A DNA stretch of 64,000 nucleotides, taken from Aliidiomarina sanyensis (GTDB lineage: Bacteria; Pseudomonadota; Gammaproteobacteria; Enterobacterales; Alteromonadaceae). Of this stretch, positions 1,139-55,156 are shown in pieces. Made by a program: the position numbers and the translations under genes. Within the stretch, counting starts at the first letter, position 1, and each line of letters starts with the position of its first letter. The notes beneath the pieces are model-generated. The model did not search any database. It was not told the origin of the DNA and saw only the letters and a list, made by a program, of their open reading frames with translations. The stretch spans positions 1 to 64,000 of the forward strand of contig NZ_PIPM01000006.1 of assembly GCF_003987175.1 (NCBI RefSeq), read 5' to 3'.

Positions 1139-1625
1139 GTAGCCAACGCACCGCGTTGGGCTTTCAACCCTCGCTCCCAACGCTGTGCGTTGGCTACGAT
1201 CATCACTCGGCGAAGGCGTCGCTTCCAACCCTCGCTCCCAACGCTGTGCGTTGGCTACGATCATCACCCGGCGAAGGCGTCGCTTCCAACCCTCGCTCCC
1301 AACGCGGTGCGTTGGCTACGATCATCACTCGGCGAAGGCGTCGCTTTCAACCCTCGCTCCCAACGCGGTGCGTTGGCTACGATCATTACTCGGCGAAGGC
1401 GTCGCTTCCAACCCTCGCTCCCAACGCGGTGCGTTGGCTACGATCATTACTCGGCGAAGGCGTCGCTTTCAACCATCGTTCCCAACGCGGTGCGTTGGCT
1501 ACGATCATCACCCGGCGAAGGCGTCGCTTTCAACCATCGTTCCCAACGCTGTGCGTTGGCTACGATCATCACTCGGCGAAGGCGTCGCTTCCAACCCCTT
1601 GCTCCCAACGCGGTGCGTTGGCTAC
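1139..1625. repeat. REP/BIME array, nine palindromes, 61-bp period
   Basis: This fills most of the 680-bp gap between the divergent genes ung and trmJ. One plus-orientation palindrome (GTAG CCAACGC ACC GCGTTGG, from 1139) is followed by eight copies in the opposite orientation (CCAACGC-N3-GCGTTGGCTAC). Equivalent points fall at 1181, 1242, 1303, 1364, 1425, 1486, 1547 and 1609, so the period is 61 except for a last step of 62 caused by one extra base. The spacer carries ATCATCACTCGGCGAAGGCG and varies by only a few substitutions. Because 61 is not a multiple of three, the array is open in several frames, which gives spurious repetitive ORFs. The 5' GTAG next to the palindrome is the hallmark of RAYT-associated REPs. 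No gene is seen in 1087-1756. Confidence 0.9.
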
Positions 1626-1756
1626 CGTCATCACCTATGCGCGCACCGGATGTGTTGGTGGATGAAAAAATGTGGGGGCTGTGGTATGCTCGCGCGGTTT
1701 TCTGAACACGCGTTTGGGCTGGGCGGTCGGTACCGCAAAAAAGGGTAAAAGTCTCC

Positions 1757-2509
1757 ATGTTAGATAAAGTTCGCGTCATTTTGGTTGGTACAACGGATCA
1801 GCGGAATATTGGCTCTGCCGCTCGGGCGATGAAGACGATGGGCATCCATGAATTGGTCCTCGTTCAGCCGGAAGAGTTGCCAGAGGGTAAAGCACAAGCC
1901 TTGGCTGCGGGCGCAACGGATGTCCTAGCGAAAGCGCAAATTATGGACTCTTTGGCTGATGCGTTGGCAGATTGCCAATTGGTGTTGGCGACAAGCGCGC
2001 GGAACCGAACGTTAGATTGGCCGCAGCTAACTCCGCGCGAAGCGGGTGAAAAAGCTGTGCAAGAGGGGTTGGCTGGAGCGAAAGTGGCGATTGTATTTGG
2101 TCGTGAGGCGAGTGGATTGACCAATGAAGAGCTCCAGATGGCGGACTTCCATCTGCATATTCCCGCGAATCCAGAATACAGTTCACTCAACTTAGCGATG
2201 GCGGTGCAGACGGTTTGTTATGAGGTCCGCATGGCGGCTCTGGCGGCAGCGGAAGCGCCGGAATCGGTTCGTTCAAGTGACGTCGAGTATCCGCTACATG
2301 ACGATATCGAAGGGTTCTATGCGCATTTAGAACGTGTGCTCGGCCACACGGGCTTTATTATTCGCAAGCATCCGGGCATGGTGATGACGAAGTTGCGCCG
2401 CTTATTTAATCGTGCGCGTCCGGAGAAGAATGAACTGAATATTTTACGTGGGGTGTTGTCGTCAGTGGAACGCCTTGCGCCATCGAATGAAAAGCGGTCA
2501 CCTGACTGA
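1757..2509 (+). CDS. trmJ: tRNA (cytidine/uridine-2'-O-)-methyltransferase TrmJ
   Basis: A 250-residue SPOUT methyltransferase that 2'-O-methylates position 32 of tRNA anticodon loops. The SPOUT knot motifs are clear: the N-terminal NIGSAARAMKTMGI, IVFGREASGLTNEEL in the middle, and NPEYSSLNLAMAVQTVCYE for SAM binding. The C-terminal ~80 residues form the helical extension typical of TrmJ. In Enterobacteria trmJ lies directly upstream of iscR-iscS; here it is followed by iscS at 33 bp with no iscR. Ribosome-binding site is weak (AAGGGT). A -10-like TATGCT at 1685-1690 lies between the repeat array and the gene but has no good -35. Confidence 0.96.
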   Translation: MLDKVRVILVGTTDQRNIGSAARAMKTMGIHELVLVQPEELPEGKAQALAAGATDVLAKAQIMDSLADALADCQLVLATSARNRTLDWPQLTPREAGEKAVQEGLAGAKVAIVFGREASGLTNEELQMADFHLHIPANPEYSSLNLAMAVQTVCYEVRMAALAAAEAPESVRSSDVEYPLHDDIEGFYAHLERVLGHTGFIIRKHPGMVMTKLRRLFNRARPEKNELNILRGVLSSVERLAPSNEKRSPD

Positions 2510-2542
2510 TTGCCCCGTCATCTCGTTTCGAAGGAATAAGCC

Positions 2543-3694
2543 ATGAGAAAGCCTGTCTACCTTGATTATGCAGCTACGACCCCGGTCGATCCGCGGGTTG
2601 CCGAGTGCATGATGGGTTTTCTCACTATGGATGGCGTATTTGGAAATCCTGCATCTCGGTCGCATCGGTTTGGTTGGCAGGCTGAGGAAGCGGTGGATAT
2701 CGCGCGCGAACAAATTGCTCAGTTGATTCATGCGGATCCGCGCGAGATTGTCTTTACTTCTGGGGCGACGGAAGCTAGCAATCTTGCAATCAAAGGGGTG
2801 ATGGAGTTTCATCAAAACCGCGGCAAACATGTGGTCACAGTGGTGACGGAGCATAAAGCGACTCTAGACACCTGTGCCGCACTTGAGGCCGCCGGATTTG
2901 AAGTGACTTACTTGCCGGTTGATGCGCAAGGAGCGCTTGATCTTGCTGATGTGCAGCAAGCACTGCGACCTGATACGGTGTTGTTGTCGGTCATGCAGGT
3001 CAATAACGAAACGGGTGTGATGCATCCAATTCGTGAGCTTGCTCAACTTGCCCATGAGAATGGCACGCTCATTCACGTGGATGCGGCTCAAAGTGTTGGC
3101 AAGATCGCGGTTGATGTGCGCGACCTCGATGTGGACCTGATGTCGATCTCAGCGCATAAAATGTACGGGCCGAAAGGTATCGGTGCGCTATTCGTGCGTC
3201 GGAATCCGCGGGTTCTTTTGCAATCTCAGATCCACGGCGGTGGGCACGAACGAGGGATGCGTTCAGGGACACTTGCGCCCCATCAAATTGCCGGATTTGG
3301 CCAAGCAGCCGCCATCGCGTCAGAAGCGCTTGAACAGGACGGTTATCGGATTGGGCTGCTCCGCGCACAATTGTGGACGGGTCTGCAAAACATCCCCGGC
3401 ATTGTCTTGAATACGGATTTGAAGCGCAGTGTGCCGGGTATTCTCAATATTGGATTTGAGGGGATTGAAGGCGAAACTTTACTGATGGCGCTCGGCCAGC
3501 TCGCGGTATCTTCAGGATCCGCGTGCAACAGTGCGAGTGTCGAGCCCTCTTATGTCCTGCGCGCAATGGGGCGATCGGATGCGGTGGCGCACGCAAGCAT
3601 TCGCTTGAGTGTGGGTCGTTTTACAACCGAGGAAGAAATCGATTTCGCTGCGCAGCTCGTGAACGATACGGTCACTGGACTGCGCAGCAGCTAA
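2543..3694 (+). CDS. iscS: Cysteine desulfurase IscS, solitary and C-terminally short
   Basis: A 383-residue PLP-dependent cysteine desulfurase that takes sulfur from L-cysteine as a persulfide for Fe-S clusters and tRNA thiolation. Key residues fall at the same positions as in E. coli IscS: His104 (TEHKATLDT), the PLP lysine Lys206 ([10 protein letters not shown]) and the persulfide Cys328 ([21 protein letters not shown]). The protein stops about 21 residues before the E. coli enzyme (404), removing the tail that contributes to IscU contact. No iscR, iscU, iscA, hscBA or fdx is present; the next gene is msrA on the opposite strand, then ndk. The ribosome-binding site is AAGGAA. It may serve mainly tRNA thiolation or supply another assembly system (inference). 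Confidence 0.93.
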
Positions 3695-3701
3695 ATCGAT
3701 A

Positions 3702-4241
3702 TTATTTCAAACGTGCGGCAAAGGTCTTTTTGAATTTCGCTAACTTGGGTGATACGACGGCCTGACAGTACTGGTTTTGCGGATTCCGCTCAAAGTAGTT
3801 GTCGTGGTAGTCCTCCGCTGGATAGAAGGTTTCAAGTGCTGCAACCTGCGTGGCAACTGGATCTGGCCACATCTTGTCTGCTTCAATCTCCGCGATAATT
3901 TCATGGGCGGCTGCTTCTTGAGCCGGAGAATGGAAGAAAATGGCGGTCCGGTATTGCGTACCAATATCATTCCCCTGCCGGTTCACTTGCGTTGGATCAT
4001 GCAGCGCAAAGAATATCTCGAGTAGTTCACGGTAACTGATCACGGTTGGATCAAAGGTGATTTGCACCACCTCTGCGTGGCCGGTGGAACCGGTGCACAC
4101 TTCTTTGTAAGTTGGGTTTTCGGTATGCCCACCCGCATAGCCTGATTTGACCCGAGCGACACCTTGCAGTTGATTAAAAGCGGATTCTAAACACCAGAAG
4201 CACCCTCCCGCCAGGGTGGCTTGTTCTAACGCACTACTCAT
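3702..4241 (-). CDS. msrA: Peptide-methionine (S)-S-oxide reductase MsrA
   Basis: A 179-residue enzyme that reduces the S-epimer of methionine sulfoxide in proteins and so repairs oxidative damage. The catalytic motif GCFWC lies at residues 13-17, followed by GYAGGHTENPTYKEVCTGSTGHAEVV, which is diagnostic of MsrA. The start is the ATG at 4241, with AGGTGG nine bases upstream; a longer reading frame of 28 extra residues has no signal for initiation and is not conserved in character. Convergent with iscS, seven bases apart, at a place where the isc operon would be expected. Confidence 0.96.
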   Translation of the reverse strand: MSSALEQATLAGGCFWCLESAFNQLQGVARVKSGYAGGHTENPTYKEVCTGSTGHAEVVQITFDPTVISYRELLEIFFALHDPTQVNRQGNDIGTQYRTAIFFHSPAQEAAAHEIIAEIEADKMWPDPVATQVAALETFYPAEDYHDNYFERNPQNQYCQAVVSPKLAKFKKTFAARLK

Positions 4242-4331
4242 CTCGTTCCACCTTTCAAATAAACATCTAGACGGCCAAAATACATGAGCGCAAAAAATTT
4301 GCAAGTGCTTGTAGGGGCACGTCAAGATTTA

Positions 4332-4361
4332 TTGGGAAAAATTCCTTGAATCGCGTATAAT
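4332..4361 (+). promoter_or_regulatory. Predicted sigma-70 promoter of ndk
   Basis: TTGGGA (4332-4337) and a perfect TATAAT (4356-4361) are separated by 18 bases, 40 bp upstream of the ndk start. It lies in the divergent region between msrA and ndk. Confidence 0.6.
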
Positions 4362-4400
4362 CCGCGCGACTTTTTTTATAACTTGAACCGGGAGTAACAC

Positions 4401-4832
4401 ATGGCTTTGGAACGTACTTTGTCCATCATTAAGCCTGACGCGGTTGCGAAAAACGTAATCGGCGCAATCGTAAATCGTTTTGAATCTGCAGGTCTGCGTA
4501 TCGTGGGTCAGAAAATGATGCACCTGAGCAAAGAGCAAGCAGAAGGCTTTTACGCTGAACATAAAGAGCGTCCGTTCTTTGGCGCATTGGTCGAGTTCAT
4601 GACTTCAGGTCCAATCGTCGTTATGGCGTTGGAAGGTGAAGATGCGGTTCGTAAAAACCGTGAAATCATGGGTGCAACCAACCCACAAGAAGCTGCGGCA
4701 GGAACCTTGCGCGCAGACTACGCAGAAACCATCGATGAGAACGCAGTTCACGGTTCCGATGCGGTTGAATCTGCAGCACGCGAAATCGCCTATTTCTTCT
4801 CTGATGAAGAAGTTTGTGCTCGTACCCGCTAA
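4401..4832 (+). CDS. ndk: Nucleoside diphosphate kinase
   Basis: A 143-residue NDP kinase that moves the gamma phosphate of ATP onto other (d)NDPs through a phosphohistidine. The N-terminus [20 protein letters not shown] and the catalytic [21 protein letters not shown], with the phosphorylated histidine, are intact and the length is exactly that of the family. The ribosome-binding site is GGGAG. It has its own promoter and terminator, so it is probably monocistronic. Confidence 0.98.
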
Positions 4833-4854
4833 AATAGTAGGGAAGCGCACAGAG

Positions 4855-4879
4855 AAAAGGGGCTTTGAGCCCCTTTTTT
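4855..4879 (+). terminator. Rho-independent terminator after ndk
   Basis: AAAAGGGGCT pairs with AGCCCCTTTT around a TTG loop and runs into six T residues. Confidence 0.9.
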
Positions 4880-4922
4880 GACCGCACGAAAAGAAATTTG
4901 CTGAAGAAATATTGAGGTCGTC

Positions 4923-6095
4923 ATGACAGTAAGCACTTGCAACCCGAGCACCGAGCAAAGCGCCGGAACCGCAAAAAAAGTTAACCTGCTGGATTTAAAC
5001 AAGCAGGGCATGCGGGATTTCTTTGCCCAGCTAGGGGAGAAGCCGTTTCGCGCCGAACAGGTGATGAAGTGGGTCTATCATTACTGCGAAGATGACTTCG
5101 ATAAGATGACAAACTTAAACAAAGCCTTGCGAGCCAAGCTTAAAGAAGTTGCTGAGGTGCGTGCGCCGGAGATTAAAGTTCAGCAGCAATCGGCCGATGG
5201 AACCATTAAGTTCGCGATGGATTTAGGGGACGGTCAGGAGGTTGAGTCTGTTTGGATTCCTGAAGACGACCGCGCAACGCTGTGCGTATCCTCTCAAGTG
5301 GGCTGTGCTCTGGAATGTACCTTCTGCTCTACGGGGCATCAAGGGTTCAACCGGAACTTGAAAGTGTCAGAAATCATTGGCCAAGTGTGGCGGGTGAGTA
5401 AGCTGCTTGGTCCGTTCGGTGAAACGAATGTGAAAGCGGTGACCAATGTCGTCATGATGGGGATGGGTGAGCCGTTGTTGAACCTCAAGAATGTTGTCCC
5501 AGCGATGGAGCTGATGCTCGATGATTACGGCTTTGGTCTGTCCAAGCGACGGGTGACCTTAAGTACCTCAGGTGTCGTGCCTGCACTTGACCTGTTGCGC
5601 GAGCAAATTGATGTGGCCTTGGCAATTTCACTTCACGCACCAACGAATGATTTGCGTGATGAGATTGTGCCCATTAACAAAAAGTATCCGATTGAAGAGT
5701 TTTTGGCCGCGTCACGTCGGTATATCGAAAACTCGAAAGCACAATCGAAGGTGACCGTGGAGTATGTCATGTTGGATCATATTAATGACTCAACGGATCA
5801 AGCACATCAGTTGGCGAGCGTATTGAAAGGAACACCCAGTAAAATAAACTTAATTCCTTTTAATCCCTTCCCCGGCTCTGAGTATGGTCGTTCGAGTAAT
5901 TCTCGTATTGATCGTTTCTCAAAGGTATTGATGCAGCACGGTTATACCGTTATCGTTAGAAAGACGCGTGGGGACGATATTGACGCGGCGTGTGGACAGC
6001 TCGTCGGGGATGTAGTGGATCGCACAAAACGCTTATTGAAAAAACAACAAAAACAAAAGAATGGGGAACCGATTAAGGTAAATGTGGTCGGTTAG
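4923..6095 (+). CDS. rlmN: 23S rRNA/tRNA adenine-C2 methyltransferase RlmN
   Basis: A 390-residue radical-SAM enzyme that methylates C2 of A2503 in 23S rRNA and A37 in some tRNAs. The [4Fe-4S] motif CX3CX2C is seen as [11 protein letters not shown], the SAM-binding GMGEPLLN segment follows, and the catalytic C-terminal cysteine is in [12 protein letters not shown]. The N-terminus carries a ~20-residue Ser/Thr-rich lead before [31 protein letters not shown] lies just upstream of the chosen ATG. In many gammaproteobacteria pilF follows rlmN; here rodZ follows directly after 58 bp. Confidence 0.97.
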
Positions 6096-6153
6096 CCTAT
6101 TACGATATCGATTCCGGCGATGGATTGCCTCAAAGTAGTGAATTCAGCTAAAC

Positions 6154-7203
6154 ATGACCGATACCAAACAAAATGAAGAGCTCCCTCTTGACGAGGAGAG
6201 CGAAGGCCAAGTGGATACGCAGGTAACCCCTGGGGAGTTGTTGCGCGCTGCGCGTGAGCAAGCGGGTTTGTCTGTGAGCCAAATTGCTGACCGACTGCGT
6301 CTTCGGCGTTCACAGATCGAAGAGCTTGAAGCCAATGAATTTAGTAAGTACGTCGGTGGAACATATATCCGCGGTTACTTGCGTTCATACGCCAAACTTG
6401 TAAACCTGAACGAAGCGAGTGTTATCGCCGCGTACCAAAGCTTTATCGGCGAAGAAGTCCCTCCCGGCCAAATGCAAAGTTTCTCGCGCAAAACCAAGCT
6501 TGAATCACAAGACAACAAGCTGATGCTGATCACGTGGATCATTATCCTCTTGTTGATTGGTTCGGTCGCGGTTTTTGTTTGGCAACAATTTATCGAAGAG
6601 CAAAACGGCAACGGCCTCTCATCGTCCGCAACGACAACGTCGACTCAAGCGCGTGAACGAGCCACTTCAACGACGACTCCTCAGCGCGAATTGGAGCGTC
6701 AACGGGATCCGATTGACCCACGTGATCGCGATGATGTGATCGCACCAGAGGAAACCGAAACTTTGGTGGAAGCCCCGGTTGAGCCAGTCGTGGTGCCAGA
6801 AGTATCAACTGAAACGACAGAATCAGAAAGCACTGTCTCTGAATCCACCAGCGCGTCAACGAGCCAAACGCCCGTCAGTACACAGCCACCTCGGCAGACT
6901 TCGGACGTTCAATCGACACGCTCTGAGCCAGCTGCATCGCCGGCGGGTTCAGAGATCCCAGACGCTGAATTGGTATTGACGTTTGCAGATGATTGTTGGG
7001 TTCGAATCGAAGATGCGACCGGTGCTGTAATTGCATTCGGCGTCAAACAAGCGGGGCATGTGATGCCGTTAGAAGGCGAAGCGCCTTTTGAGTTAACCTT
7101 GGGAGCTCCCCAAGCCGTTTCTGTTTATTTTCGTGGTGAATCGATTGACTTGAGTTCCTACCGTGGGCGCACAGCGCGCTTCCGCTTGCCTGCCGAAGGT
7201 TAA
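6154..7203 (+). CDS. rodZ: Cytoskeleton protein RodZ
   Basis: A 349-residue bitopic membrane protein that links MreB filaments to the elongasome and maintains rod shape. Residues ~27-95 form a helix-turn-helix domain (GELLRAAREQAGLSVSQIADRLRLRRSQIEELE), one transmembrane helix lies at about 123-145, then a Thr/Ser/Pro/Glu-rich periplasmic linker (~150-265) and a C-terminal DUF4115 beta domain (LVLTFADDCWVRIEDATGAVIAFG). The order matches E. coli RodZ. The linker is low-complexity. The gene keeps its conserved place upstream of ispG. No strong ribosome-binding site is visible. Confidence 0.95.
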   Translation: MTDTKQNEELPLDEESEGQVDTQVTPGELLRAAREQAGLSVSQIADRLRLRRSQIEELEANEFSKYVGGTYIRGYLRSYAKLVNLNEASVIAAYQSFIGEEVPPGQMQSFSRKTKLESQDNKLMLITWIIILLLIGSVAVFVWQQFIEEQNGNGLSSSATTTSTQARERATSTTTPQRELERQRDPIDPRDRDDVIAPEETETLVEAPVEPVVVPEVSTETTESESTVSESTSASTSQTPVSTQPPRQTSDVQSTRSEPAASPAGSEIPDAELVLTFADDCWVRIEDATGAVIAFGVKQAGHVMPLEGEAPFELTLGAPQAVSVYFRGESIDLSSYRGRTARFRLPAEG

Positions 7204-7254
7204 GCCAACGGTGAACCACTGAAGCGTGTTCCGAAAAGAGAGTAGTTACCGAAC

Positions 7255-13129: not shown

Positions 13130-13200
13130 GTAGCCAACGCATTGCGTTGGGTTTTGCTCGGGTGGGAACCGTGCCCTCGCGCCCAACGCAGCGCGTTGGG
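13130..13200. repeat. REP pair (BIME) between der and hslO
   Basis: GTAG CCAACGC ATT GCGTTGG (13130-13150) is followed by a middle part TTTTGCTCGGGTGGGAACC... and a second, inverted palindrome CCCAACGCAGCGCGTTGGG (13182-13200) with a decayed flank. The middle is shared with the element between mscS and xseA. It lies between two convergent genes and could also stop transcription or protect mRNA ends. Confidence 0.85.
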
Positions 13201-26081: not shown

Positions 26082-26945
26082 ATGACTGATCTTCTCGATT
26101 GGTTCGCAGAGAACCAAGAGTCCATTTTGCTGTTTTCCGGCAACGTGGTCGTCGCTCTCTTTATTATTGTCGGTGGCTTTATGTTGGCCCGAGCAATTGC
26201 CAATATCTTGGTAAAACGGCTCGATAAGTCAAACATCGATAATGCAGTTGTTTCATTTATGGCGGGGATTATCCGCACCATCATCATGGTTGCGGCGATC
26301 CTTATGGCGTTATCCCATGTGGGGATTCAAACGACGTCCTTTATCGCTATCTTGGGTGCGGCTGGTTTGGCTGTGGGCTTGGCACTCCAAGGCTCTTTGT
26401 CCAACTTTGCGTCGGGTGTTTTGATCATGATTTATCGTCCGTTTAAGTCGGGCGACTACGTGGACGCTGGTGGGACGGCAGGAACGGTTCAGCGTATTGA
26501 GCTGTTTACCACAGTTCTGAAAACGCCAGATAACAAGCTTGTGATTGTACCGAACTCAAAGATTACCGGAAGTGAGATTACGAATTTCTCAGAAGAGCCG
26601 ATTCGTCGGGTTGATATGGTGATTGGTGTTTCATACAAAGCGGATTTGAAGAAAACGAAAGACGTCCTGATGAATGTAATTACCTCCGATGAGCGCACGC
26701 TGCAAGACCCGGCGCCGCGCGTTGCGGTCACTGCATTGAACGATTCTTCTGTGGACTTCATTGTTCGTCCATGGGTGAAAAGCGCTGACTACTGGCCGAT
26801 GTACTGGGATTCCATGGAGCGCATTAAAAATGCACTCGATGAAAATGGCATCGGCATTCCGTTCCCACAAATGGATGTTCATTTACACCATCCAGAGGGC
26901 GAGGCCGGCGTTCTACGCGTCGTCCAACAGAAAGAAGAGTCGTAA
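26082..26945 (+). CDS. mscS: Small-conductance mechanosensitive channel (MscS family)
   Basis: A 287-residue channel that opens under membrane tension and releases solutes on osmotic downshock. There are three transmembrane segments near the N-terminus. The third has the Gly/Ala-rich pore helix (AILGAAGLAVGLALQGSLSNFASGVLIMIYRPFKSGDYV), then the beta domain and the C-terminal cytoplasmic cage. Length equals E. coli MscS (286). It is 39 bp downstream of gspN in the same direction, possibly read through from the gsp operon. Confidence 0.96.
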   Translation: MTDLLDWFAENQESILLFSGNVVVALFIIVGGFMLARAIANILVKRLDKSNIDNAVVSFMAGIIRTIIMVAAILMALSHVGIQTTSFIAILGAAGLAVGLALQGSLSNFASGVLIMIYRPFKSGDYVDAGGTAGTVQRIELFTTVLKTPDNKLVIVPNSKITGSEITNFSEEPIRRVDMVIGVSYKADLKKTKDVLMNVITSDERTLQDPAPRVAVTALNDSSVDFIVRPWVKSADYWPMYWDSMERIKNALDENGIGIPFPQMDVHLHHPEGEAGVLRVVQQKEES

Positions 26946-26950
26946 CCGAC

Positions 26951-27025
26951 GCATGTTCCGTAACGGGCGTTGGGCTTTGCTCGGGAGGGAACCATGCCCT
27001 CCACCCAACGCGTTGCGTTGGCTAC
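26951..27025. repeat. REP element between mscS and xseA
   Basis: An inverted-orientation REP (CCAACGCGTTGCGTTGGCTAC, ending 27025) is preceded by the middle part GCTTTGCTCGGGAGGGAACC... and a partner half with GCATGTTCCGTAACGGGCGTTGGG. The GTAG of the REP, read on the minus strand, supplies the TAG stop of xseA (27022-27024). It lies between convergent genes. Confidence 0.85.
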
Positions 27026-28407
27026 CCGTTAATTTTTTTTACGGTGGAAATGACCTCACCCTCGGCGAAACGGGTCCGAAGGGTGTCGCCTGGTTGTAAG
27101 GCCGTTGCTTGACGGACGATCTGACCATCTTGGTTGAACGTGATGGTGTATCCGCGGCTGAGGGTGTTTAGAGGACTCACCAAACTGAGTGCCTGTTGGG
27201 ACGCCCGAAATCGACTATTGGACTGATTGAGTTGATTCACAATCGCGCGCTTTCCTTGTTGGAGTAAGCGCTCCTGCTGCAATTTTAATTCTTGAACGCG
27301 CTTGGCTAAGTGTCCTTTATCAAGGGAACGTTGTTGTTGCTCGACCCGCTGGCGCTGTGCTGCAACCGATCGTTGAATGGCGCGCTCTGCCCGGCGGACT
27401 AGCTCATCGAGTAACTGTGCTTGGGTCTGTAGCCTTTGCTGGGGGCTGAGGGGCTGCAAGCGTTGTTGTGCGTGCTGCCAGCGCAACTGCGTTTGACGCA
27501 GGTATTGCTGTGCACTGCGTGCAAGTCGAGCCGTTATAAGCATCAGGTGACGGCGGCTTTCACTCTGATCCTGGCTGACCAGCTCAGCGGCAGCTGATGG
27601 GGTGGGGGCACGCACGTCTGCGACGAAATCTGCGATCGTGAAATCGATCTCGTGGCCAACAGCACTGACGGTCGGGATGGGGCAGTTGGCGATATCCCGA
27701 GCGAGATTTTCATCGTTAAAACACCACATATCTTCGAGTGAGCCACCGCCTCGGGTGAGCAGGATCGTGTCGACTTCGTTGCGTCGAATCGCGGTAGCCA
27801 GTGCTTGACGTAATTGCTGGGCGGCATCGGCACCTTGCACTTGGCTGGGGTAGATGATCACATGCAAGCTGGGATCACGACGCCGTAGGACGGTCAGGAC
27901 GTCGCGAATAGCGGCGCCGGTGGGCGATGTAATGACGCCGAGTGTGCGAATTCTCTCTGGGAGTCGCTTTTTACGTTCCGGTGCGAACAGGCCTTCGTGG
28001 GTGAGTTGCCGTTTGAGTGCTTCAAACTGCTGTTGCAACAGGCCCTCACCTGCGGGCTCTAGGTGTTCGACAATGAGTTGGTAGTCTCCACGTGGTTCAT
28101 ACAAGCTAATTTTGGCTCGGACCATGACTTGCATACCATTGCCAGGTCGTTGTCCATTCGGGAGTCGCACACGCATATTATTACCGCGGAACATGGCCGC
28201 CCGAATCTGTGCTTGTTCATCTTTGAGGGTGAAATACCAGTGTCCTGAACCAGGGGCTGAGAAGTTGCTGATTTCACCGACCAGCCACAGGGAACCCCAC
28301 TGACGCTCAAGAAGTTGGCGTACTTGCCGGTTTAATCCGGAGACGGTGAGTACTTTACGATCTTCGCGCGGGGCTGGGGTTAAATCGTCCCAATCATCTG
28401 AAAACAT
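27022..28407 (-). CDS. xseA: Exodeoxyribonuclease VII large subunit
   Basis: A 461-residue large subunit of exonuclease VII, which degrades single-stranded DNA and acts in repair. It has an N-terminal OB fold (VSGLNRQVRQLLERQWGSLWLVGEISNF), the catalytic core with SPTGAAIRDVLTVLRRRDP, GGGSLEDMWCFNDE and VGHEIDFTIADFVADVRAPTPSAAAE, a long Gln/Arg-rich coiled coil (~265-400) and a C-terminal segment. The stop codon TAG belongs to a REP palindrome, so the last residue (ING) sits at the repeat junction. xseB is not adjacent. Confidence 0.96.
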   Translation of the reverse strand: MFSDDWDDLTPAPREDRKVLTVSGLNRQVRQLLERQWGSLWLVGEISNFSAPGSGHWYFTLKDEQAQIRAAMFRGNNMRVRLPNGQRPGNGMQVMVRAKISLYEPRGDYQLIVEHLEPAGEGLLQQQFEALKRQLTHEGLFAPERKKRLPERIRTLGVITSPTGAAIRDVLTVLRRRDPSLHVIIYPSQVQGADAAQQLRQALATAIRRNEVDTILLTRGGGSLEDMWCFNDENLARDIANCPIPTVSAVGHEIDFTIADFVADVRAPTPSAAAELVSQDQSESRRHLMLITARLARSAQQYLRQTQLRWQHAQQRLQPLSPQQRLQTQAQLLDELVRRAERAIQRSVAAQRQRVEQQQRSLDKGHLAKRVQELKLQQERLLQQGKRAIVNQLNQSNSRFRASQQALSLVSPLNTLSRGYTITFNQDGQIVRQATALQPGDTLRTRFAEGEVISTVKKING

Positions 28408-32019: not shown

Positions 32020-33425
32020 ATGAATACCGAATTAGGCTGGATCAGTCTGTTACCCTCCTTGTTGGCAATTCTGTTCGCTATTGTGACGCGCAAGGTCATT
32101 TGGGCACTGCTCGGTGGGGTGTTGCTGGCGCACGTACTCCTGTTTATGCCGCAGGTCGGTGTTGGGTTATGGTCTGGGACCACCAGTTTATTCGAAACCC
32201 TCGTGAATCCGAGCAACCAATTGATTTGGGGCTTCACCCTTGCGATCGGCGCTTTGTTTGGTGTTTTGGAGCGGGGTGGAACTTTTGTTCACTTTGTGCG
32301 CGCGCTTGAGCAAAAGCAGCTCGTCCCGAATAAACGGCGGGCACGTTTATTCACATGGGTGTTAGGTGTTGTGGTCTTTATTGAGTCAAATGTGTCGATT
32401 ATGACCTCAGGGACGACATCACGACCCGTCTACGACAAGCTCGGCATCTCTCGGCAAAAGTTAGCTTACCTCGTCGACTCAACCTGTGCCCCGGTCTGCA
32501 TTCTTATTCCGCTCAATGCGTGGGGCGCATTCAATTTAGGGCTGATTGGTAATCAAGGGGTTGCCGATCCGCTAACCACCCTAGTCTATGCAGTGGTTCT
32601 GAACTTTTATGCTATCGTGGCGTTAATGCTGGCGTTTGGCGTGGCGTGGACCGGCTGGTCATTCGGACCCATGCAGAAGTACGAGCGAGAGGCACGAGTA
32701 AAGGTTGCTGAGCGACTTGAGCAAGAAAAAAAGCCGGGGCAAAACCATATCCCGAAACAAGCAATCAATCGTGGGGCGCTTGCTACGGTATTGATTAGTT
32801 TAGTCACCATGGTGCTGCTCGTTCCAATTATGCTGTATATCACTGGGGATGGTTCAATTGTTCGAGGGCGGGGGATGGTCAGCGTCTTTGTCGCGATCGT
32901 CACGGCGTTAATTATTGCGATTATCGGCACATGGTTGAGTTTGCGGACTCCGGTAAAAGTGATTGCAGAGGCAGTGCTGCGCGGCGCATGGAAGATACTA
33001 CCGCTCGCAGTTATTCTCTGGTTGGCGATTACTCTGGGTGACGCGACACGAGCCCTTGGCAGCGGTGCTTACCTTGCCGATATCCTTAATGAGGCATTGC
33101 CGACTTGGATGCTCCCGGCATTGATTTTCTTGCTGGCGGCATTAACTGCATTTGCGATTGGTTCGAGTTGGGGGACCTTTGCCATTATGCTGCCCCTCGC
33201 AATCCCGCTCGCGATGAGTCTCGATTTGCCCGTTCCATTGTTAATTGCTGCAGCTCTGTCCGGCGGGATCTTTGGCGATCACGCATCGCCGATCAGTGAT
33301 ACCACAATCATTGCATCCTTGGCGGCTGGAGTTGATCATATAGAACACGTGCAGACCCAGTTGCCCTACGCGGTCTTGGCTGCGGTTATAACCACCGTCC
33401 TATTCGCCGCAGCTGGAATGATGAT

Positions 33426-33429
<4 letters not shown>
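32020..33429 (+). CDS. NhaC-family Na+/H+ antiporter-like transporter
   Basis: A 469-residue polytopic membrane protein of the NhaC/ion-transporter superfamily with about 11-12 hydrophobic segments. Family features include IESNVSIMTSGTTSRPVYDKLGISRQKLAYLVDSTCAPVCILIPLNAWGA and, near the end, GSSWGTFAIMLPLAIPLA and GGIFGDHASPISDTTI. It probably exchanges Na+ for H+, which suits a saline habitat; related members carry organic substrates, so the substrate is not certain. The start has AAGGGAG upstream. The stop TAG (33427-33429) is the TAG of a REP element, and the protein ends in MMM at that junction. Confidence 0.9.
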
Positions 33430-34291
<862 letters not shown>

Positions 34292-41339: not shown

Positions 41340-41942
41340 CTAGCGTTTACGGTTCTGTTCTTTGGTGGCCAGTTTACGCTCGGAATTTTTCCGAATCATG
41401 ACATAAGTCGCCCCTGCACCTCCATGATGCTTTTGTGCGGTATGAAAAGCCAATACTGGCTCAAGCTCGGGGAGCCACTGATTACATAAGCTTTTCAACA
41501 GAGCGGGCCGAGGCTGGCTTTTGAGACCAAGTCCGTGGATGATCAGTCCGGTGCGAATTCCACGGCGATAACAATCGGCAATAAAACCGGCGACTTCTCT
41601 CCGGGCTTCTCGAACTCGAAGATGGTGGAGATTGAGGGTGGCTTGCGGTTCGTAATGGCCTTTCTTGAGCTGCCGGAACACGCCATCTTGCACACCATCT
41701 TTGCGCCAAAAAATGGGGTCGTGTGGCTCAATCCAGTCACGAACCTCTTCGCTTAGCGCAATACTATCCTCGTCTTCCTGTGCTTGCGCTGCCCGTTGGC
41801 GTTCCGCTTGCTGTTCGGGCGTGAGGCCTTGATGTTCTTGGCGCACGATATCATCCGCCTTGATGCGCGCAACATCGTGCATCATCTCTCGAAACAGATC
41901 GAATTCATCCGAGGGACTTTTCTGACCTTTGCTCTGCGACAT
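41340..41942 (-). CDS. smrA: Smr domain protein, SmrA-like endonuclease
   Basis: A 200-residue protein with a helical N-terminus rich in Glu/Gln and a C-terminal Smr domain. The Smr motifs are LNLHHLRVREARREVAGFI (a variant of LDLHG), LIIHGLGLKSQPRPALLKSLCNQWL and GGAGATYVMIRK. E. coli SmrA has DNA endonuclease activity. The start is the ATG at 41942 (MSQSKGQKSPSDEF), with GAGGT four bases upstream; the 73-codon upstream extension is translated REP sequence and is rejected. The second H replaces the usual G in the LDLHG motif. Confidence 0.88.
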   Translation of the reverse strand: MSQSKGQKSPSDEFDLFREMMHDVARIKADDIVRQEHQGLTPEQQAERQRAAQAQEDEDSIALSEEVRDWIEPHDPIFWRKDGVQDGVFRQLKKGHYEPQATLNLHHLRVREARREVAGFIADCYRRGIRTGLIIHGLGLKSQPRPALLKSLCNQWLPELEPVLAFHTAQKHHGGAGATYVMIRKNSERKLATKEQNRKR

Positions 41943-41993
41943 GGATACCTCACACACCCCAATCGATGCCTCAGTGTACCAAACAAGACCAAG

Positions 41994-42343
41994 GTAGCCA
42001 ACGCAGCGCGTTGGGTTTCGCGATGTAGCCAACGCACTGCGTTGGGTTGAGCTCGGGTGGGAGCTATGCCGTCTCCGGGACGCCGTGAACCCATCCATGG
42101 GGGCTTGACTGCCGCATCCATGCGGCAGACACCCGGCGGAGGCATAGCCCCACCCTCGCACACAACGCGCAGCCCCGGCTCCGTATCGCTCCGTTCAAGC
42201 TCGTTTTAATCAATCAGACCCAACGCAGTGCGTTGGCTACGTTACTACATCGCGCGACCCAACGCATTGCGTTGGCTACGTTACTACATCGCACGACCCA
42301 ACGCAGTGCGTTGGCTACGTTACGTTGGCCACAATGCGTTGGG
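41994..42343. repeat. REP array with nested inverted-repeat element
   Basis: This fills the 414-bp gap between smrA and the porin. Two plus-orientation REPs (GTAG at 41994 and 42025, 31 bp apart) come first. A 110-bp inverted-repeat element follows, with arms 42051-42079 and 42132-42158 and a centre holding GGGACGCCGT and CTGCCGCATCCATGCGGCAG. Next come about 60 bp of other sequence, then three REPs in the opposite orientation at an exact 39-bp period (42218, 42257, 42296) with spacer GTTACTACATCGC. A decayed fourth copy ends near 42343. Confidence 0.9.
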
Positions 42344-49797: not shown

Positions 49798-49887
49798 AGG
49801 GCATCAATTTGCTGCGATGGAAAGTTTTCTAATCTAACACTTTAGTCGGAAACCGCCAGTGATTTGGCGCGAATAACTGGCCTATTC

Positions 49888-49901
49888 GACTAAGGTCCAA
49901 T
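49888..49901. promoter_or_regulatory. Candidate CrbR operator upstream of the symporter operon
   Basis: GACTAAGGTCCAAT matches GACTATGGTCTAAT before acs at 12 of 14 positions and has the same GAC-N4-GTC inverted half-sites. It lies about 94 bp before the DUF4212 gene, in the region divergent from crbS, so it could serve either. Confidence 0.5.
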
Positions 49902-49994
49902 TTCGCCCTTCGGGCTTCTCCAACATGCTTGCTCCATACCTCGGGAACAACCACAAAAAGCCGAGGTTTTCGACAACCTTTGGAGGAAACACAC

Positions 49995-50261
49995 ATGGCA
50001 TTTGAATCGGAAGATCATGCCAAAGCCTATTGGAAAGAGAATCTTGCTTTAATGATCAAGCTCTTGATTGTTTGGTTCACGGTCTCTTTCGGCTTCGGCA
50101 TTATCCTGGTGGACTGGCTGAACCAGATCACCTTTTTCGGCTTCAAGCTCGGGTTCTGGTTTGCCCAGCAAGGCGCTATCTACACCTTTATCGTGCTGAT
50201 CTTTATCTACATCCATCAGATGAACAAGCTCGATAAAAAATACAAGGTCGACGAGGAGTAA
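49995..50261 (+). CDS. Sodium/solute symporter small subunit (DUF4212)
   Basis: An 88-residue protein with two transmembrane helices (about 19-40 and 52-75) and the DUF4212 pattern (AKAYWKENLALMIKLLIVWFTVSFGFGIIL ... GFWFAQQGAIYTFIVLIFIY). It is the partner always found before VC_2705-type symporters. The start is the ATG at 49995 with GGAGG upstream. Only three bases separate it from the large subunit. Confidence 0.94.
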   Translation: MAFESEDHAKAYWKENLALMIKLLIVWFTVSFGFGIILVDWLNQITFFGFKLGFWFAQQGAIYTFIVLIFIYIHQMNKLDKKYKVDEE

Positions 50262-50264
50262 ACT

Positions 50265-51971
50265 ATGGATATTCAAACACTCACGTTTATCGTCGTCGGT
50301 CTGACTTTTGCGCTTTATATTGGAATTGCAATTTGGGCGCGTGCCGGTTCGACGAATGATTTCTATGTAGCAGGCGGGGGTGTGCCTCCGGTTGCAAATG
50401 GGATGGCGACAGCTGCAGATTGGATGTCTGCTGCATCCTTCATTTCAATGGCGGGTCTGATCTCCATGCTCGGATATGACGGCAGCGTCTATCTGATGGG
50501 ATGGACCGGCGGATATGTGCTTCTGGCACTCTGTCTGGCACCTTACTTGCGTAAGTTTGGTAAGTTTACCGTGCCCGACTTTATTGGCGATCGCTATTAC
50601 TCGCAAACCGCGCGGACCGTTGCGGTTATTTGTGCCATCTTGGTGTCCTTCACGTATATCGCGGGTCAGATGCGCGGTGTGGGCGTGGTTTTCAGCCGCT
50701 TCTTGGAAGTCGACATTACAGCCGGTGTCTTGATTGGCATGGCGATGGTTTACTTCTATACCCTGTTGGGGGGAATGAAGGGCATTACCTACACTCAGGT
50801 TGCTCAGTATTGTGTTTTGGCGTTCGCCTACACAGTTCCTGCAGTCTTTATCACCATGCAAATGACGGGGCATTTCTTACCACAAACTGGGTTTGGCGCG
50901 ACCTTAGCCGACGGTTCGGGTCAGTACTTACTCGAGCGCCTCGATGGCTTGTCGACGGAGCTTGGTTTTGCACCCTACACGGAAGGTACTAAATCGGGCT
51001 TAGATGTATTTGCAATCACTATGGCGCTGATGGTGGGTACCGCGGGTTTGCCACACGTTATTATCCGCTTTTTCACGGTTCCGAAAGTTCGTGATGCACG
51101 CCGCTCAGGTGGTTGGGCACTGGTCTTTATCGCGGTGGTATACACCACAGCACCGGCTATTGCTTCTATTACCAAGGTGAATATCTTGAACACGCTCAAC
51201 GGTCCGGATCAGCAAGGCGTCTTGTATGAAGATGCACCGAGCTGGGTCACGAACTGGGAGCGAACGGGTCTTATCACCTGGGATGATCATAATGAAGATG
51301 GTCGGATGTTCTATTCGAATGACGAGCGGAATGAAATGCACGTCGACGCGGACATCATTGTCTTGGCAAGCCCAGAGATCGCGAGCCTACCGAATTGGGT
51401 AGTCGCCTTGGTCGCAGCGGGTGGTGTTGCCGCGGCACTGTCTACCTCAGCAGGGTTGCTCTTGGTTATCTCGAGTTCCGTGTCTCATGATTTGTTGAAG
51501 CGAACCTTGATGCCGAACATATCGGACCGGCAAGAGCTATTCTATGCACGGGTAGCGGCTGGGGTTGCCGTGGTCATCGGTGCGTATTTCGGGATTAATC
51601 CGCCCGGCTTCGTGGCGCAGGTGGTCGCCTTCGCGTTCGGTCTGGCTGCGGCCTCGTTCTTCCCAGCGATTATCCTCGGGATATTCCATAAGCGGATGAA
51701 CAGCACCGGAGCCATTGCGGGAATGGTCGTAGGTATTATCTTCACCTTGTCCTATATTATTTACTTCCGCTTCATCAATCCGGCGGCAGATACCCCAGAG
51801 AACTGGTGGTTCGGAATTTCGCCGGAGGGAATTGGAACGGTGGGGATGCTTCTGAACTTTATTGTCGCCTTGACGGTGTTGAAGTTCACCAAGGAAGCTC
51901 CGAAAGAAATTCAGGATTTGGTGGAATCCATTCGATATCCGAAAGGCGCTGGCGCAGCAACGGGCCATTAA
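50265..51971 (+). CDS. Sodium/solute symporter, VC_2705 type (ActP-like acetate permease)
   Basis: A 568-residue SSS-family permease with about 13-14 transmembrane helices. It starts MDIQTLTFIVVGLTFALYIGIAIWARAGSTNDFYVAGGGVPPVANGMATAADWMSAASFISMAG, close to ActP. A large loop between helices (about residues 300-370, acidic, HNEDGRMFYSNDE) is typical of the VC_2705 group. Together with acs and CrbS/R it probably imports acetate or another short carboxylate with Na+; the substrate is inferred from context. Confidence 0.92.
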   Translation: MDIQTLTFIVVGLTFALYIGIAIWARAGSTNDFYVAGGGVPPVANGMATAADWMSAASFISMAGLISMLGYDGSVYLMGWTGGYVLLALCLAPYLRKFGKFTVPDFIGDRYYSQTARTVAVICAILVSFTYIAGQMRGVGVVFSRFLEVDITAGVLIGMAMVYFYTLLGGMKGITYTQVAQYCVLAFAYTVPAVFITMQMTGHFLPQTGFGATLADGSGQYLLERLDGLSTELGFAPYTEGTKSGLDVFAITMALMVGTAGLPHVIIRFFTVPKVRDARRSGGWALVFIAVVYTTAPAIASITKVNILNTLNGPDQQGVLYEDAPSWVTNWERTGLITWDDHNEDGRMFYSNDERNEMHVDADIIVLASPEIASLPNWVVALVAAGGVAAALSTSAGLLLVISSSVSHDLLKRTLMPNISDRQELFYARVAAGVAVVIGAYFGINPPGFVAQVVAFAFGLAAASFFPAIILGIFHKRMNSTGAIAGMVVGIIFTLSYIIYFRFINPAADTPENWWFGISPEGIGTVGMLLNFIVALTVLKFTKEAPKEIQDLVESIRYPKGAGAATGH

Positions 51972-51981
51972 GCGTAACGCA

Positions 51982-52004
51982 AGCCCCGCTATGGCGGGGC
52001 TTTT
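51982..52004 (+). terminator. Rho-independent terminator after the symporter
   Basis: AGCCCCGC pairs with GCGGGGCT around TATG and is followed by T residues. It lies only four bases before the next start codon, so the next gene may be reached by partial read-through. Confidence 0.8.
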
Positions 52005-52007
52005 ACT

Positions 52008-53858
52008 ATGGATTTTTTTATGACCAGTGATAGCCAAGATATTCGTAGCTTTTTACAACAGACTCCACCGTTCGATGCGCTCGATGCGGACACGTTGAAA
52101 CTTGCTGCCGATAAAATGCAGGCGATGTATCTGTGTCAGGCGAACCGGGACGAAATCATTCGCCCGGATCGTCCTATGTTGTTTTTGGTGCGCTCCGGCG
52201 CATCAGATTTAGTCGACAAAGATGGGCAGCACATTGAGCGTCTCGAACCGGGAGACCTCTTTGGCTACCCATCTTTGTTGACTGGTCGAGCGATTACGAA
52301 TCGCTTGCAAGTGATTGCTGACGGCATTGTGTGGACGTGGTCCGCGGCGCTGTTTGATGAAATGCGCCGACGTTCTCAAGCATTTGAACGTTATTTTATG
52401 AATGCCCATGGGCAACGGCTGCTCGCAGAGAAAGGGGGGCAAACAGGTCTTGATTGGACCGAGAAAACCTTGGACTCGGTGTTGGAACGGACGCCTGTTT
52501 CTATTCCCAGCGCTGCATCAATCCGAGAGGCAGCAATCAAAATGTCCGAGCATCGGGTGTCCTGTTTGCTAGTGGTTGATGACGAGCAGTTACGGGGAAT
52601 TTTGACGGATAGAGATTTGCGTAACCGTGTGGTTGCCGCTGGATTGACGACAGATACAGCCGTGGCCGCCGTGATGACACCGATGCCAGCTGTCGTCTAT
52701 GCCCGAGAAAGTTTATTTGATGCACTGACTGCGATGAGTCAAACCAATATTCATCATCTACCGGTGCTCGATGATCAAGAGCGTCCAGTTGGCGTCATCA
52801 CAGCAACCGATTTGATGCATCAACAGCGCAGCGAACCGGTGCTTCTGATCAATGCATTATTCAAAGCACGGGATAAAGAAGCCTTGGTGCAGGAGGCGCA
52901 GAAAATCCCAGATTACTTGCGCAGCTTTGCTGGACGGGTGCGAGACATCGGGACGATCGGTCGACTGCTGTCGTCGTTAACCGATGGGATGACTAAAAAA
53001 CTCATTCAACTTTATGAGCAGAAACATGGCAGTGCCCCATGCGCCTATGTGTGGTTGGCATTTGGTTCGCAAGCCCGTGGGGACCAAACCCTGGGATCGG
53101 ATCAAGACAATGGGCTCCTATTCGCCGATGAAATCACCGATGGTCAGCGCCAGTGGTTTGCAGATATGGCGACGTATGTCTGTGATGGGCTCGCGGATTG
53201 CGGAATTCGTTTGTGTCCTGGGGACATCATGGCGAAAAATCCAGTGTGGCAAATGACGCGGTTGCAATGGCGGGAGCAATTTCAAAAGTGGGTTCGTTCC
53301 CCAACACCCAAAAATATTATGCATAGTATGATTTTCTTTGATAGCCGTGCGGTGGCGGGCAATACGACCTTGTATCGTAGGCATCGGGAGGAGGTCGCGA
53401 AGCTAGCGCAGCATGATATGTTCTTGGGAAATATTGCACGTCATATCGGCGAGCTAAGTGTCCCTCTCGGATTATTTAATCGGTTTCGCACGAAATCTGA
53501 GGGCGAGTTTGAATATATTGATATTAAGAAGCAGGCGATTGCCATTTTGAATGATATTGTCCGCTTATACAGTCTTTCCGCGGGTCTTACGGTACCTGCA
53601 ACACCAGCGCGTTTAGCCCAGCTGCGCGGGAAGAGCCCGCTGAACGACAAGGACAACACGAACCTGCTCGAAGCGTGGCAGTTTCTGACGCAACTTCGCT
53701 TAAATGTGCAAATGGATCGGCGCTACGATGGCGTCCCTGCGAATGCTGTGGATCCAGAGCAATTAAGCACGTTGCAAAGACGGCAACTGAAGGCGGCCTT
53801 TCGTGTGATTAAAAATGCACAGCAAGGGGTCTCCTTTAAGTTCGGTAGGAATATGTGA
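52008..53858 (+). CDS. Cyclic-nucleotide-binding/CBS/DUF294 nucleotidyltransferase-like protein
   Basis: A 616-residue cytoplasmic protein. It has an N-terminal cNMP-binding-like domain (~15-130), two CBS domains (~155-275, HRVSCLLVVDDEQLRGILTDRDLRNRV), a DUF294 nucleotidyltransferase domain with GSQARGDQTLGSDQDNGLLFAD (~350) and a DUF294 C-terminal helical domain. Relatives sit beside ActP-like symporters and an exonuclease in many proteobacteria. Function is unproven; the domains suggest nucleotide sensing. The start is either ATG 52008 or ATG 52020; neither has a clear ribosome-binding site because a terminator stem lies just upstream. Confidence 0.88.
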   Translation: MDFFMTSDSQDIRSFLQQTPPFDALDADTLKLAADKMQAMYLCQANRDEIIRPDRPMLFLVRSGASDLVDKDGQHIERLEPGDLFGYPSLLTGRAITNRLQVIADGIVWTWSAALFDEMRRRSQAFERYFMNAHGQRLLAEKGGQTGLDWTEKTLDSVLERTPVSIPSAASIREAAIKMSEHRVSCLLVVDDEQLRGILTDRDLRNRVVAAGLTTDTAVAAVMTPMPAVVYARESLFDALTAMSQTNIHHLPVLDDQERPVGVITATDLMHQQRSEPVLLINALFKARDKEALVQEAQKIPDYLRSFAGRVRDIGTIGRLLSSLTDGMTKKLIQLYEQKHGSAPCAYVWLAFGSQARGDQTLGSDQDNGLLFADEITDGQRQWFADMATYVCDGLADCGIRLCPGDIMAKNPVWQMTRLQWREQFQKWVRSPTPKNIMHSMIFFDSRAVAGNTTLYRRHREEVAKLAQHDMFLGNIARHIGELSVPLGLFNRFRTKSEGEFEYIDIKKQAIAILNDIVRLYSLSAGLTVPATPARLAQLRGKSPLNDKDNTNLLEAWQFLTQLRLNVQMDRRYDGVPANAVDPEQLSTLQRRQLKAAFRVIKNAQQGVSFKFGRNM

Positions 53859-54475
53859 TGCGTCGTCTTCGAGCCTGGCGCCATGGCCGAGGGAATTGGC
53901 AGCAAGCGCGATGGATGGCGCTTGATATTGAAACCAACGGGCTGAGTCCAAAGGAAGATGCGATGCTCAGCTTGGCTTGGGTTCCAATTCAACCTCCTGT
54001 GATTGCGCTTGATCGCACCGGTTATTCGTTACTTCATTCGGATACCACGTTGAATCAAAGCGCGACGATTCATCAGTTATCCTCGTCTGATCTTGCCTCC
54101 GGCCGGCCTTTGAAAGAAGTACTTGAGGCGTTCACGCACGATGCGCAGGACCATTTTATCGTGGCTCATAATGTGCAGTTTGATCGAAGCGCGTTGCAGG
54201 CTGCTTTGGCCCGCGCCGGAATGCGTTGGCGCGCGGATGGATGGTACTGCACGCTCCTTGCGGAAAAAAAGCGTCTAGAGCGTGCACACAATGTCCTTCC
54301 TCACGGCAGTCTGACACTTGCTGCAAGTCGCGCGCGGTATGGGCTTGCGGACTTTACTGGGCATCATGCGTTGCACGATGCGATCGCCTGCGCTGAACTT
54401 TTCCTTGCCCAAGCCTATCGAAGCAGCAACGGGCAATCGATTCCTGCTCGACGGATTCTGAAGGATGGGCGCTGA
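53858..54475 (+). CDS. DEDDh 3'-5' exonuclease (DnaQ-like)
   Basis: A 205-residue exonuclease of the DnaQ/epsilon type. ExoI is in MALDIETNGLSP, ExoII in IVAHNVQFDRSAL and ExoIII in GHHALHDAIACAEL, so the catalytic Asp/Glu/His set is complete. Its start overlaps the stop of the previous gene (TGATG), with TAGGA upstream, which points to coupled translation. This DUF294-exonuclease pair is common next to ActP-like symporters; why is not known. Confidence 0.9.
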   Translation: MRRLRAWRHGRGNWQQARWMALDIETNGLSPKEDAMLSLAWVPIQPPVIALDRTGYSLLHSDTTLNQSATIHQLSSSDLASGRPLKEVLEAFTHDAQDHFIVAHNVQFDRSALQAALARAGMRWRADGWYCTLLAEKKRLERAHNVLPHGSLTLAASRARYGLADFTGHHALHDAIACAELFLAQAYRSSNGQSIPARRILKDGR

Positions 54476-54508
54476 AGCGAAATTGCTTTTTATTTAGGCA
54501 AATTTCAG

Positions 54509-54534
54509 TATACTGCGCAACAAGTTGTTAACAA
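54509..54534 (+). promoter_or_regulatory. Possible promoter and palindrome before the orphan ACP gene
   Basis: A TATACT box (54509-54514) is followed at 54525-54534 by the perfect palindrome TTGTTAACAA, near the expected transcription start. No -35 has good spacing (TTGCTT is 20 bases away). The palindrome could be an operator. Confidence 0.4.
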
Positions 54535-54602
54535 TCCTGCTATGGCGCGCAATGAGGGCGGCAACCTTCATGTCATAGGTGTGCAGATATTGTGAGGTCG
54601 TT

Positions 54603-54863
54603 TTGACGATTCGTGAACATCAACTCGAACAAATGATTCGAGACGTCATGGATGAAGTTGCAGCGGAGACAGGCCGCGAAACCTTAAACCAGATCGATAG
54701 CCAAACCTTGCTCGCTGAGAGCGGCTTGGATTCTCTTGGTCTTGCTATCGTTATGGCTCGCCTCGAAACGCGCCTCGGTTTCGATCCCTTCGCGCGCACC
54801 TCCGATGCTCAATTCCCAAGAACCTTCAGCGAACTCGTTGCGCTCTACCGACGCCAATTGTAG
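54603..54863 (+). CDS. Orphan acyl carrier protein-like protein
   Basis: An 86-residue phosphopantetheine-binding protein. The attachment serine is in LAESGLDSLGLAIVMARLE (DSL motif), flanked by helices as in acyl or peptidyl carrier proteins. It is not AcpP: the sequence around the DSL motif differs and no fab genes are nearby. The start is taken as TTG at 54603 (MTIREHQLEQ), with GAGGT four bases upstream; a GTG eight codons earlier lacks a site. The stop TAG is part of a REP element. It is not next to any synthase or ligase in the window, so its partner is unknown. Confidence 0.82.
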   Translation: MTIREHQLEQMIRDVMDEVAAETGRETLNQIDSQTLLAESGLDSLGLAIVMARLETRLGFDPFARTSDAQFPRTFSELVALYRRQL

Positions 54864-55156
54864 CCAACGCAACGCGTTGGGCGCCCAATTCGAACGGGGC
54901 GCTGGGCACAGAGATCGTAGCCAACGCATTGCGTTGGGCGCCCAATTCGAACGGGGCACTGGGCACAGAGATCGTAGCCAACGCATTGCGTTGGGCGCCC
55001 AATTCGAACGGGGCGCTGGGGCTCGAGGCGGGTCAATCCCTCCCCAGGGACGCCGTAAATACGTCCCTGTAGGCTTGTCTGCCGCATCCATGCGGCACAC
55101 ACCCTGCGGAGGCATACGACCCACCCCGAACCGTAGCCAACGCACTGCGTTGGGCT
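54860..55156. repeat. REP array with 57-bp period and nested inverted-repeat element
   Basis: This fills the 337-bp gap between the ACP gene and the lipoprotein gene. Three REPs in plus orientation start at 54860, 54917 and 54974 (exact 57-bp period), with spacer GGGCGCCCAATTCGAACGGG.... A second inverted-repeat element follows (arms about 55024-55050 and 55112-55132, centre GGGACGCCGT and TGCCGCATCCATGCGGCA). One more plus-orientation REP starts at 55133. The centre is shared with the element at 42051-42158. Confidence 0.9.

Follow-up and report, generated by a model that had tools for sequence, protein, structure and literature searches.

Arrays of repetitive extragenic palindromes (REPs) are commonly presented as consisting of a REP and its flanking DNA. 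In Stenotrophomonas maltophilia, the GTAG repeats termed SMAG occur in tandem with flanking DNA, with unit numbers that vary between strains (Roscetto 2008, PMC2613905); tandem clusters of REPINs (pairs of inverted REPs) are described in Pseudomonas fluorescens SBW25 (Bertels and Rainey 2011, PMC3116915), and in the GTAG superfamily tandem reiteration occurs and the tag often supplies a TAG stop codon (Di Nocera 2013, PMC3733652). Local REPIN amplification, probably via host replication, has been modelled (PMC8049555), while TnpAREP cleavage and the classes of RAYTs (REP-associated tyrosine transposases) are treated in PMC8266576 and PMC6006769, respectively; all six sources are cited here for selected parts of their text. 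Both tandem REP arrays that include flanking DNA and differences in copy number between strains are already on record. Here we analyze a 64,000-nucleotide stretch of Aliidiomarina sanyensis (the window; contig C44:1-64000 of genome G000, which has 2,592,193 bases in 47 contigs) that carries tandem arrays of the palindrome CCAACGC-N3-GCGTTGG. The main text of PMC3733652 contains neither Idiomarina nor the CCAACGC stem letters, and among open-licence PMC papers on Aliidiomarina palindromic or Idiomarina REP, no title or abstract start concerned this repeat. We give a probability of about 0.7 to the reading that REP and REPIN units are mobilized by a RAYT, carry their spacers with them and then multiply at the site.

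We searched for the palindrome in perfect copies unless stated otherwise, using the pattern read backwards as a control. The window has 23 perfect copies at six loci (nine at 1143-1621, two at 13134-13199, one at 27005-27021, two at 33430-33544, five at 41998-42314, and four at 54864-55153), in agreement with the roughly twenty copies at six loci of a preliminary description of this DNA. Allowing up to three mismatches gave 32 palindromes in the window, against a chance mean of 4.8 and a maximum of 10 in 100 shuffles. The whole genome (2.59 Mb) has 368 perfect copies and none of the backward pattern. GTAG stands at one end of 22 of the 23 window copies, and 281 tagged ends (132 + 149) occur among the 368 palindromes genome-wide. 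As in GTAG-type REPs, the tag lies directly 5' of a short palindrome, the copy number is high and the six window loci are between genes or at gene ends. The loci had been called intergenic, which holds except that the tag itself forms a gene's stop codon at 27022-27025, 33426-33429, and 54860-54863. Adjacent tagged pairs no more than 200 bp apart (n = 152) are mostly head to tail (118), with 24 head to head and 10 tail to tail. Head-to-head pairs, counted with a slightly looser REP definition so as to admit a 29-bp long form (the stem and an inner CCGTAACGG), have spacers of 31-34 nt in 34 of 58 cases. Such spacers, taken once per locus (n = 18), share a mean identity of 0.436, whereas 200 letter shuffles gave 0.326 on average and 0.341 at most. 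A pair of inverted REPs with a characteristic spacer length corresponds to a REPIN, an arrangement that fits the 33426 locus but not every array. The window repeats are GTAG-tagged REPs and REPINs.

The genome contains a single Y1_Tnp match (C44:128697-129020), which lies in a gene of 189 codons (C44:128634-129200) 65 kb past the window on the same contig. The product scores 143 bits against NCBIfam REP_Tyr_transpos (NF047646; cut-off 80), making it a Y1 HUH transposase above the curated cut-off of the RAYT family, and its best PDB match is E. coli TnpAREP (4er8, E 4e-25), with HIH aligned with HMH. A scan of genome contigs with this protein gave no relative. The same REP flanks the gene: the 18 palindromes of this 3.3-kb locus are divided 13 to 5 between the two sides. 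The preliminary description had assigned the repeats to the RAYT-mobilized kind and had proposed looking for such a flanked gene; the tag and this gene support the assignment. We infer that the single RAYT would mobilize the GTAG-REP and REPIN population in trans.

Relatives of this protein were present in 5 of 16 congeners searched (G014, G015, G008, G012, and G005; 42-54% identity), and all five genes have GTAG repeats at their flanks (7-bp stem, 3-nt loop), whose stem differs in each case from that of G000. That each congener RAYT sits among its own REP type argues against a spread of the units without transposition, which we take up below. Of three more distant RAYT relatives scanned, GTAG repeats flank one and are lacking beside the other two. 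We also compared the sister species G013 and G016 and the more distant relative G001 (one genome per species). The two neighbor genes of the RAYT are 101 and 222 bp apart between alignment ends in G013 and G016, respectively, with no RAYT between them.

According to the preliminary description, a single REP lands and is then amplified with its local flank, so that spacers are private to each locus. We analyzed G000 stretches that hold 345 of the 368 palindromes, were picked for carrying REPs, and were grouped into 92 clusters (the examined stretches). With short and long REPs masked, spacer DNA was common to 59 of 4,186 cluster pairs at E<1e-3, as compared to none in a reversed-sequence control, which contradicts the statement that spacers are unrelated between loci. 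At least one such link was found for 34 of the 92 clusters, including five of the six window clusters, the exception being 33430. A comparison of 75 arrays gave 28 that share spacer DNA (E<1e-3; reversed control 0) or 34 versus 1 at E<0.01, with the long-form REP left unmasked, so that some arrays share only through it. In the 61-bp class, links at E<1e-3 join the window array (1143) to C11:19170, C12:31575, C12:76630, and C43:740; C22:207716 was added by unit inspection, its best match outside its own cluster having E 2e-3. Sharing between loci, which the preliminary description itself had named as grounds for giving up its model, thus applies to the 61-bp array. The 57-bp spacer is shared in part with the clusters at C44:83.9 and 86.7 kb, and the link of the 41998 cluster is its long spacer, not its 39-bp array.

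Some of the shared DNA belongs to a palindrome-rich dispersed element of 58 bp, with window copies at 42077-42134 and 55047-55104. Portions of the 61-bp spacer align with one end of the large form of this element, with E values (counted against one sequence) of 2e-6 to 9e-5 in four of seven 61-bp-period spacers and of 0.005, 0.03, and 0.7 in the others. In the examined stretches, a perfect REP lies within 72 bp of the element in 12 of 12 copies, whereas bases no more than 150 bp from a perfect REP make up 10.9% of the total; as these stretches were chosen for REPs, the proximity may overstate the genome value. The element also occurs in G001, where the CCAACGC-N3-GCGTTGG REP was not found. We suggest that the cargo would usually exceed one REP, being either a REPIN with a spacer of fixed length (32-33 nt) or a REP joined to part of a spacer or of another dispersed element.

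Sites in the relatives bear on the same point. The spacers at 33426 and 54860 have 77 and 36 nt. At the 33426 site, the stop codon of G013 and G016 is in the position it has in G000, and 9 bp separate it from the next likely start codon, with no REP; at the 54860 site, the gap in G016 is 15 bp (G013 is without such a neighbor gene). Because these gaps are too short for them, the two spacers are not amplified local flank. In G001 the corresponding distances between alignment ends are 77 and 50 bp, also without REP, and the REP at 13130 is absent from G013, G016, and G001. The 98-bp unit at 33426 is itself a complete REPIN-type pair with an 11-bp linker, not a lone REP with flank. The empty sites of the sister species would fit movement of REPINs as single units. 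The stretches searched in G013, G016, and G001 gave no match to the 61-bp class spacer (E<=0.01).

Amplification of a lone REP with local DNA is therefore contradicted for the 61- and 98-bp arrays and in part for the 57-bp array, and as a general account we consider it unlikely, even though the same pattern is so described for S. maltophilia in the consulted part of PMC2613905. The 39-bp array is compatible with it: its 22-nt spacer, like many others, has no relative among the examined stretches. The best match of this spacer to sister intergenic DNA is 12 of 22, shuffled spacers reach 15, and the DNA is too diverged to decide. On the whole, the spacers often appear to have come along with the hairpins and not to be local DNA.

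A REP directly follows the stop codon at 20 open reading frames (ORFs), and in 19 of these the GTAR motif consists of the last base plus the stop. We considered that REPs enter a pre-existing GTAR target. Relatives with the same stop position have GTAR in 11 of 24 ORF-relative pairs, or in 9 of 22 when two C22:266713-267873 pairs whose relative has a REP are omitted (a third such pair, C44:153841 with CTAA, was kept); against a background of 96 of 363, which includes some spurious ORFs, 9 of 22 gives a Fisher p of 0.15, with pairs that are not independent, and the idea is not supported. We propose that the cargo would settle in short intergenic gaps, where the tag often becomes the stop codon of the preceding gene.

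A separate observation concerns gene 3' ends where G000 has REPs: G013, and G016 at some sites, have another palindromic repeat there (around CCCCAGGGG), partly in tandem. These sites are L079-L088 in G013 and L093-L102 in G016, orthologous to contig positions 116.5, 123, and 130.7 kb.

Multiplication at the locus, the other part of the preliminary description, is borne out in the 61-bp class. Its 25 units at six loci have a distance of 0.081 within and 0.249 between loci, and the nearest neighbor is in the same locus for 0.85 of units (shuffled mean 0.16, largest 0.43). This grouping, seen in the sequences of the units, supports amplification after arrival. We infer that the unit would be expanded into head-to-tail repeats, with slippage, unequal recombination, or rolling-circle copying as the most likely processes, and that this would make each array uniform.

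Several observations weigh against the reading that RAYT-mobilized units carry their spacers and multiply on site. Units of the 65-bp class (11 units at four contig ends) are not grouped by locus, with distances of 0.104 within and 0.099 between loci, and neither are those of the 66-bp class (10 units in two arrays 7 kb apart; 0.080 and 0.079). Exchange between arrays thus also occurs: one class shows local multiplication, while in two others exchange obscures it. For 58 of the 92 clusters no link between spacers reached E<1e-3, and the spacers of some of these may be local flank. Several of the C44 gaps carry REPs in G016 or G013 too, and all three species have a REP at the gene end C22:266713-267873. 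The palindrome numbers 75 in G013 and 162 in G016, with GTAG on only 11 and 117, and neither species has a relative of the G000 RAYT at E<=1e-10; each has one other Y1 gene, above the Pfam and below the NCBIfam RAYT cut-off. Either REPs can persist, and perhaps multiply, without a G000-type RAYT, or it was lost from these species. The relatives are also distant: at one locus the DNA identity is about 73%. Because few G013 palindromes carry GTAG and there are sites that hold a REP in all three species, we weighted the preferred reading slightly down, and its rival without transposition up.

This rival holds that units spread by gene conversion or ectopic recombination and that arrays grow by unequal crossing over. 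It would account for the mixing of 65- and 66-bp units between arrays, for the tendency of related spacers to be neighbors, and for the REPs kept by sister species that lack the G000 RAYT. At sites of the 33426 type, which are free of REPs in both sister species, conversion had no starting copy. Together with the congener RAYTs that each have their own REP type, this makes the rival improbable.

The other Y1 gene is at G013:C4:1050618-1050929 (L112; 228 codons) and at G016:C1:5675-5881 (L117; 110 codons), beside the same neighbor gene. The 65-bp array at the four contig ends (C2:425, C15:259, C45:259, and C47:425) is the same array, and these ends may all belong to one repeated structure at which the assembly broke. 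An rRNA operon beside it was not seen: L025 and L031, two of the four ends, have no Rfam match.

The repeats are unevenly distributed. By synteny with G013, the C22 end, C10, and C44 are neighbors, and the zone formed by C44, C10, and C22 from 239 kb (273 kb, about 10.5% of the genome) accounts for at least 262 of the 368 palindromes and includes the RAYT; its boundaries were drawn after the counts were seen, and C10 and C22 were covered in part. The coincidence of zone and RAYT alone is not strong evidence, as a random gene would fall there about 1 time in 10. In G013, 22 of the 75 palindromes are at 996-1116 kb, and in G016, 32 of the 117 GTAG-tagged copies are on C25, which is 8% of its genome. 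A replication terminus or origin as the cause of the zone is not supported: of the 26 10-kb bins of G013:C4:996-1256 kb, 25 have a negative and one a slightly positive GC skew, with no clear flip.

Within the dense zone, 10 of 27 linked pairs are less than 10 kb apart (the permutations average 2.5, and 3 in 5000 attain this number). When the dispersed-element family is left out, 0 of 20000 permutations bring the remaining four families as close; when members less than 2 kb apart are dropped as well, three families are left and 1406 of 20000 permutations are as close. A tendency of neighboring loci to share related spacers is thus suggestive, and weak once close neighbors are dropped. It is conceivable, if on the whole doubtful, that REP units disperse mainly over short distances around the RAYT by local hopping, with spacers as family labels that map the order and distance of the jumps. 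If the concentration around the RAYT reflects local hopping, the dispersal distance of REPs would be measurable in ordinary genome sequences. Spacers are in any case useful markers: shared ones show co-travel, and locus-specific variants show later events.

We also resolved the window arrays into their parts. Tandem Repeats Finder reproduced all four periods of the preliminary description, 61 bp (7.8 copies), 98 bp (1.9), 39 bp (2.7), and 57 bp (2.8). Units match 94-100% within the four arrays. At the 1139 locus the first interval is 34 and the last 62, in place of 61. Tandem units in place of unique spacers speak against a CRISPR array.

The first array (1139..1625, no strand assigned) consists of one forward GTAG-REP, a 17-nt spacer, and eight reversed REPs with the 61-bp period; no plasmid relatives of it were found. 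It sits at the junction (424-1755) of what looks like an inversion mediated by REPs. Relative to G013 and G016, the uracil-DNA glycosylase gene (424-1086, minus strand) is inverted, and in G013 an inositol-monophosphatase-like gene separates the uracil-DNA glycosylase and SpoU methylase genes, with REPs on the other side of the uracil-DNA glycosylase gene; two gene names at this junction are our own reading of the sequence. A REP pair with a 32-nt spacer (13130..13199, plus strand) lies downstream of the EngA (Der) gene, its second REP being without tag; the EngA encoded there shares 92% identity with EngA of Aliidiomarina indica SW123. At 26942..27025 (no strand assigned), a long-form REP with a GTAA tag is followed by a 31-nt spacer and a reversed short REP, and both tags are stop codons of convergent genes, at 26082-26945 (plus strand) and of the exonuclease VII large subunit at 27022-28407 (minus strand).

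The tandem REPIN at 33426..33610 (plus strand) has two 98-bp units, each consisting of a GTAG-tagged short REP, 33 nt, a reversed 29-bp long-form REP, and the linker, which is incomplete in the last unit; the first GTAG is the stop codon of a Na+/H+ antiporter gene (32020-33429). Two forward REPs, 31 bp apart (41994..42045, plus strand), are probably upstream of an Smr-domain gene. The longest ORF (41340-42161) spans them; we place the gene start after the REPs because matches in relatives begin at residue 61 or later. A spacer with the 58-bp element (42046..42219, no strand assigned) and the 39-bp array (42217..42323, minus strand; three reversed REPs with the 22-nt spacer) follow. The 57-bp array (54860..55020, plus strand) has three forward REPs, the first GTAG being the stop codon of a small gene (54579-54863). 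It overlaps a 159-bp composite (54974..55153, plus strand) of a REP, the start of a 57-type spacer, the dispersed element, and a REP; the composite matches clusters C44:83866 and 86602 at 97-98% identity over 134 bp.

As far as the consulted parts of the sources allow a comparison, the G000 repeats resemble SMAG in that GTAG-tagged monomers and dimers occur in tandem at many loci, with a period that also differs by locus in SMAG (50 bp, 103 bp). They differ in the stem and in the rest of the unit, which in SMAG is flanking DNA, whereas in G000 many spacers are shared between loci and two are absent from a sister site. Compared to the REPINs of SBW25, head-to-tail neighbors dominate in G000 (118 of 152). 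With the GTAG superfamily, the G000 repeats share the GTAG tag, its frequent use as a TAG stop codon, the short stem, a RAYT flanked by repeats, and tandem arrangement with flanking DNA; they are distinct in being mostly head to tail and regionally concentrated. What is unusual in G000 is that most of its REPs are concentrated in a zone that makes up about 10.5% of the genome and also includes the RAYT.

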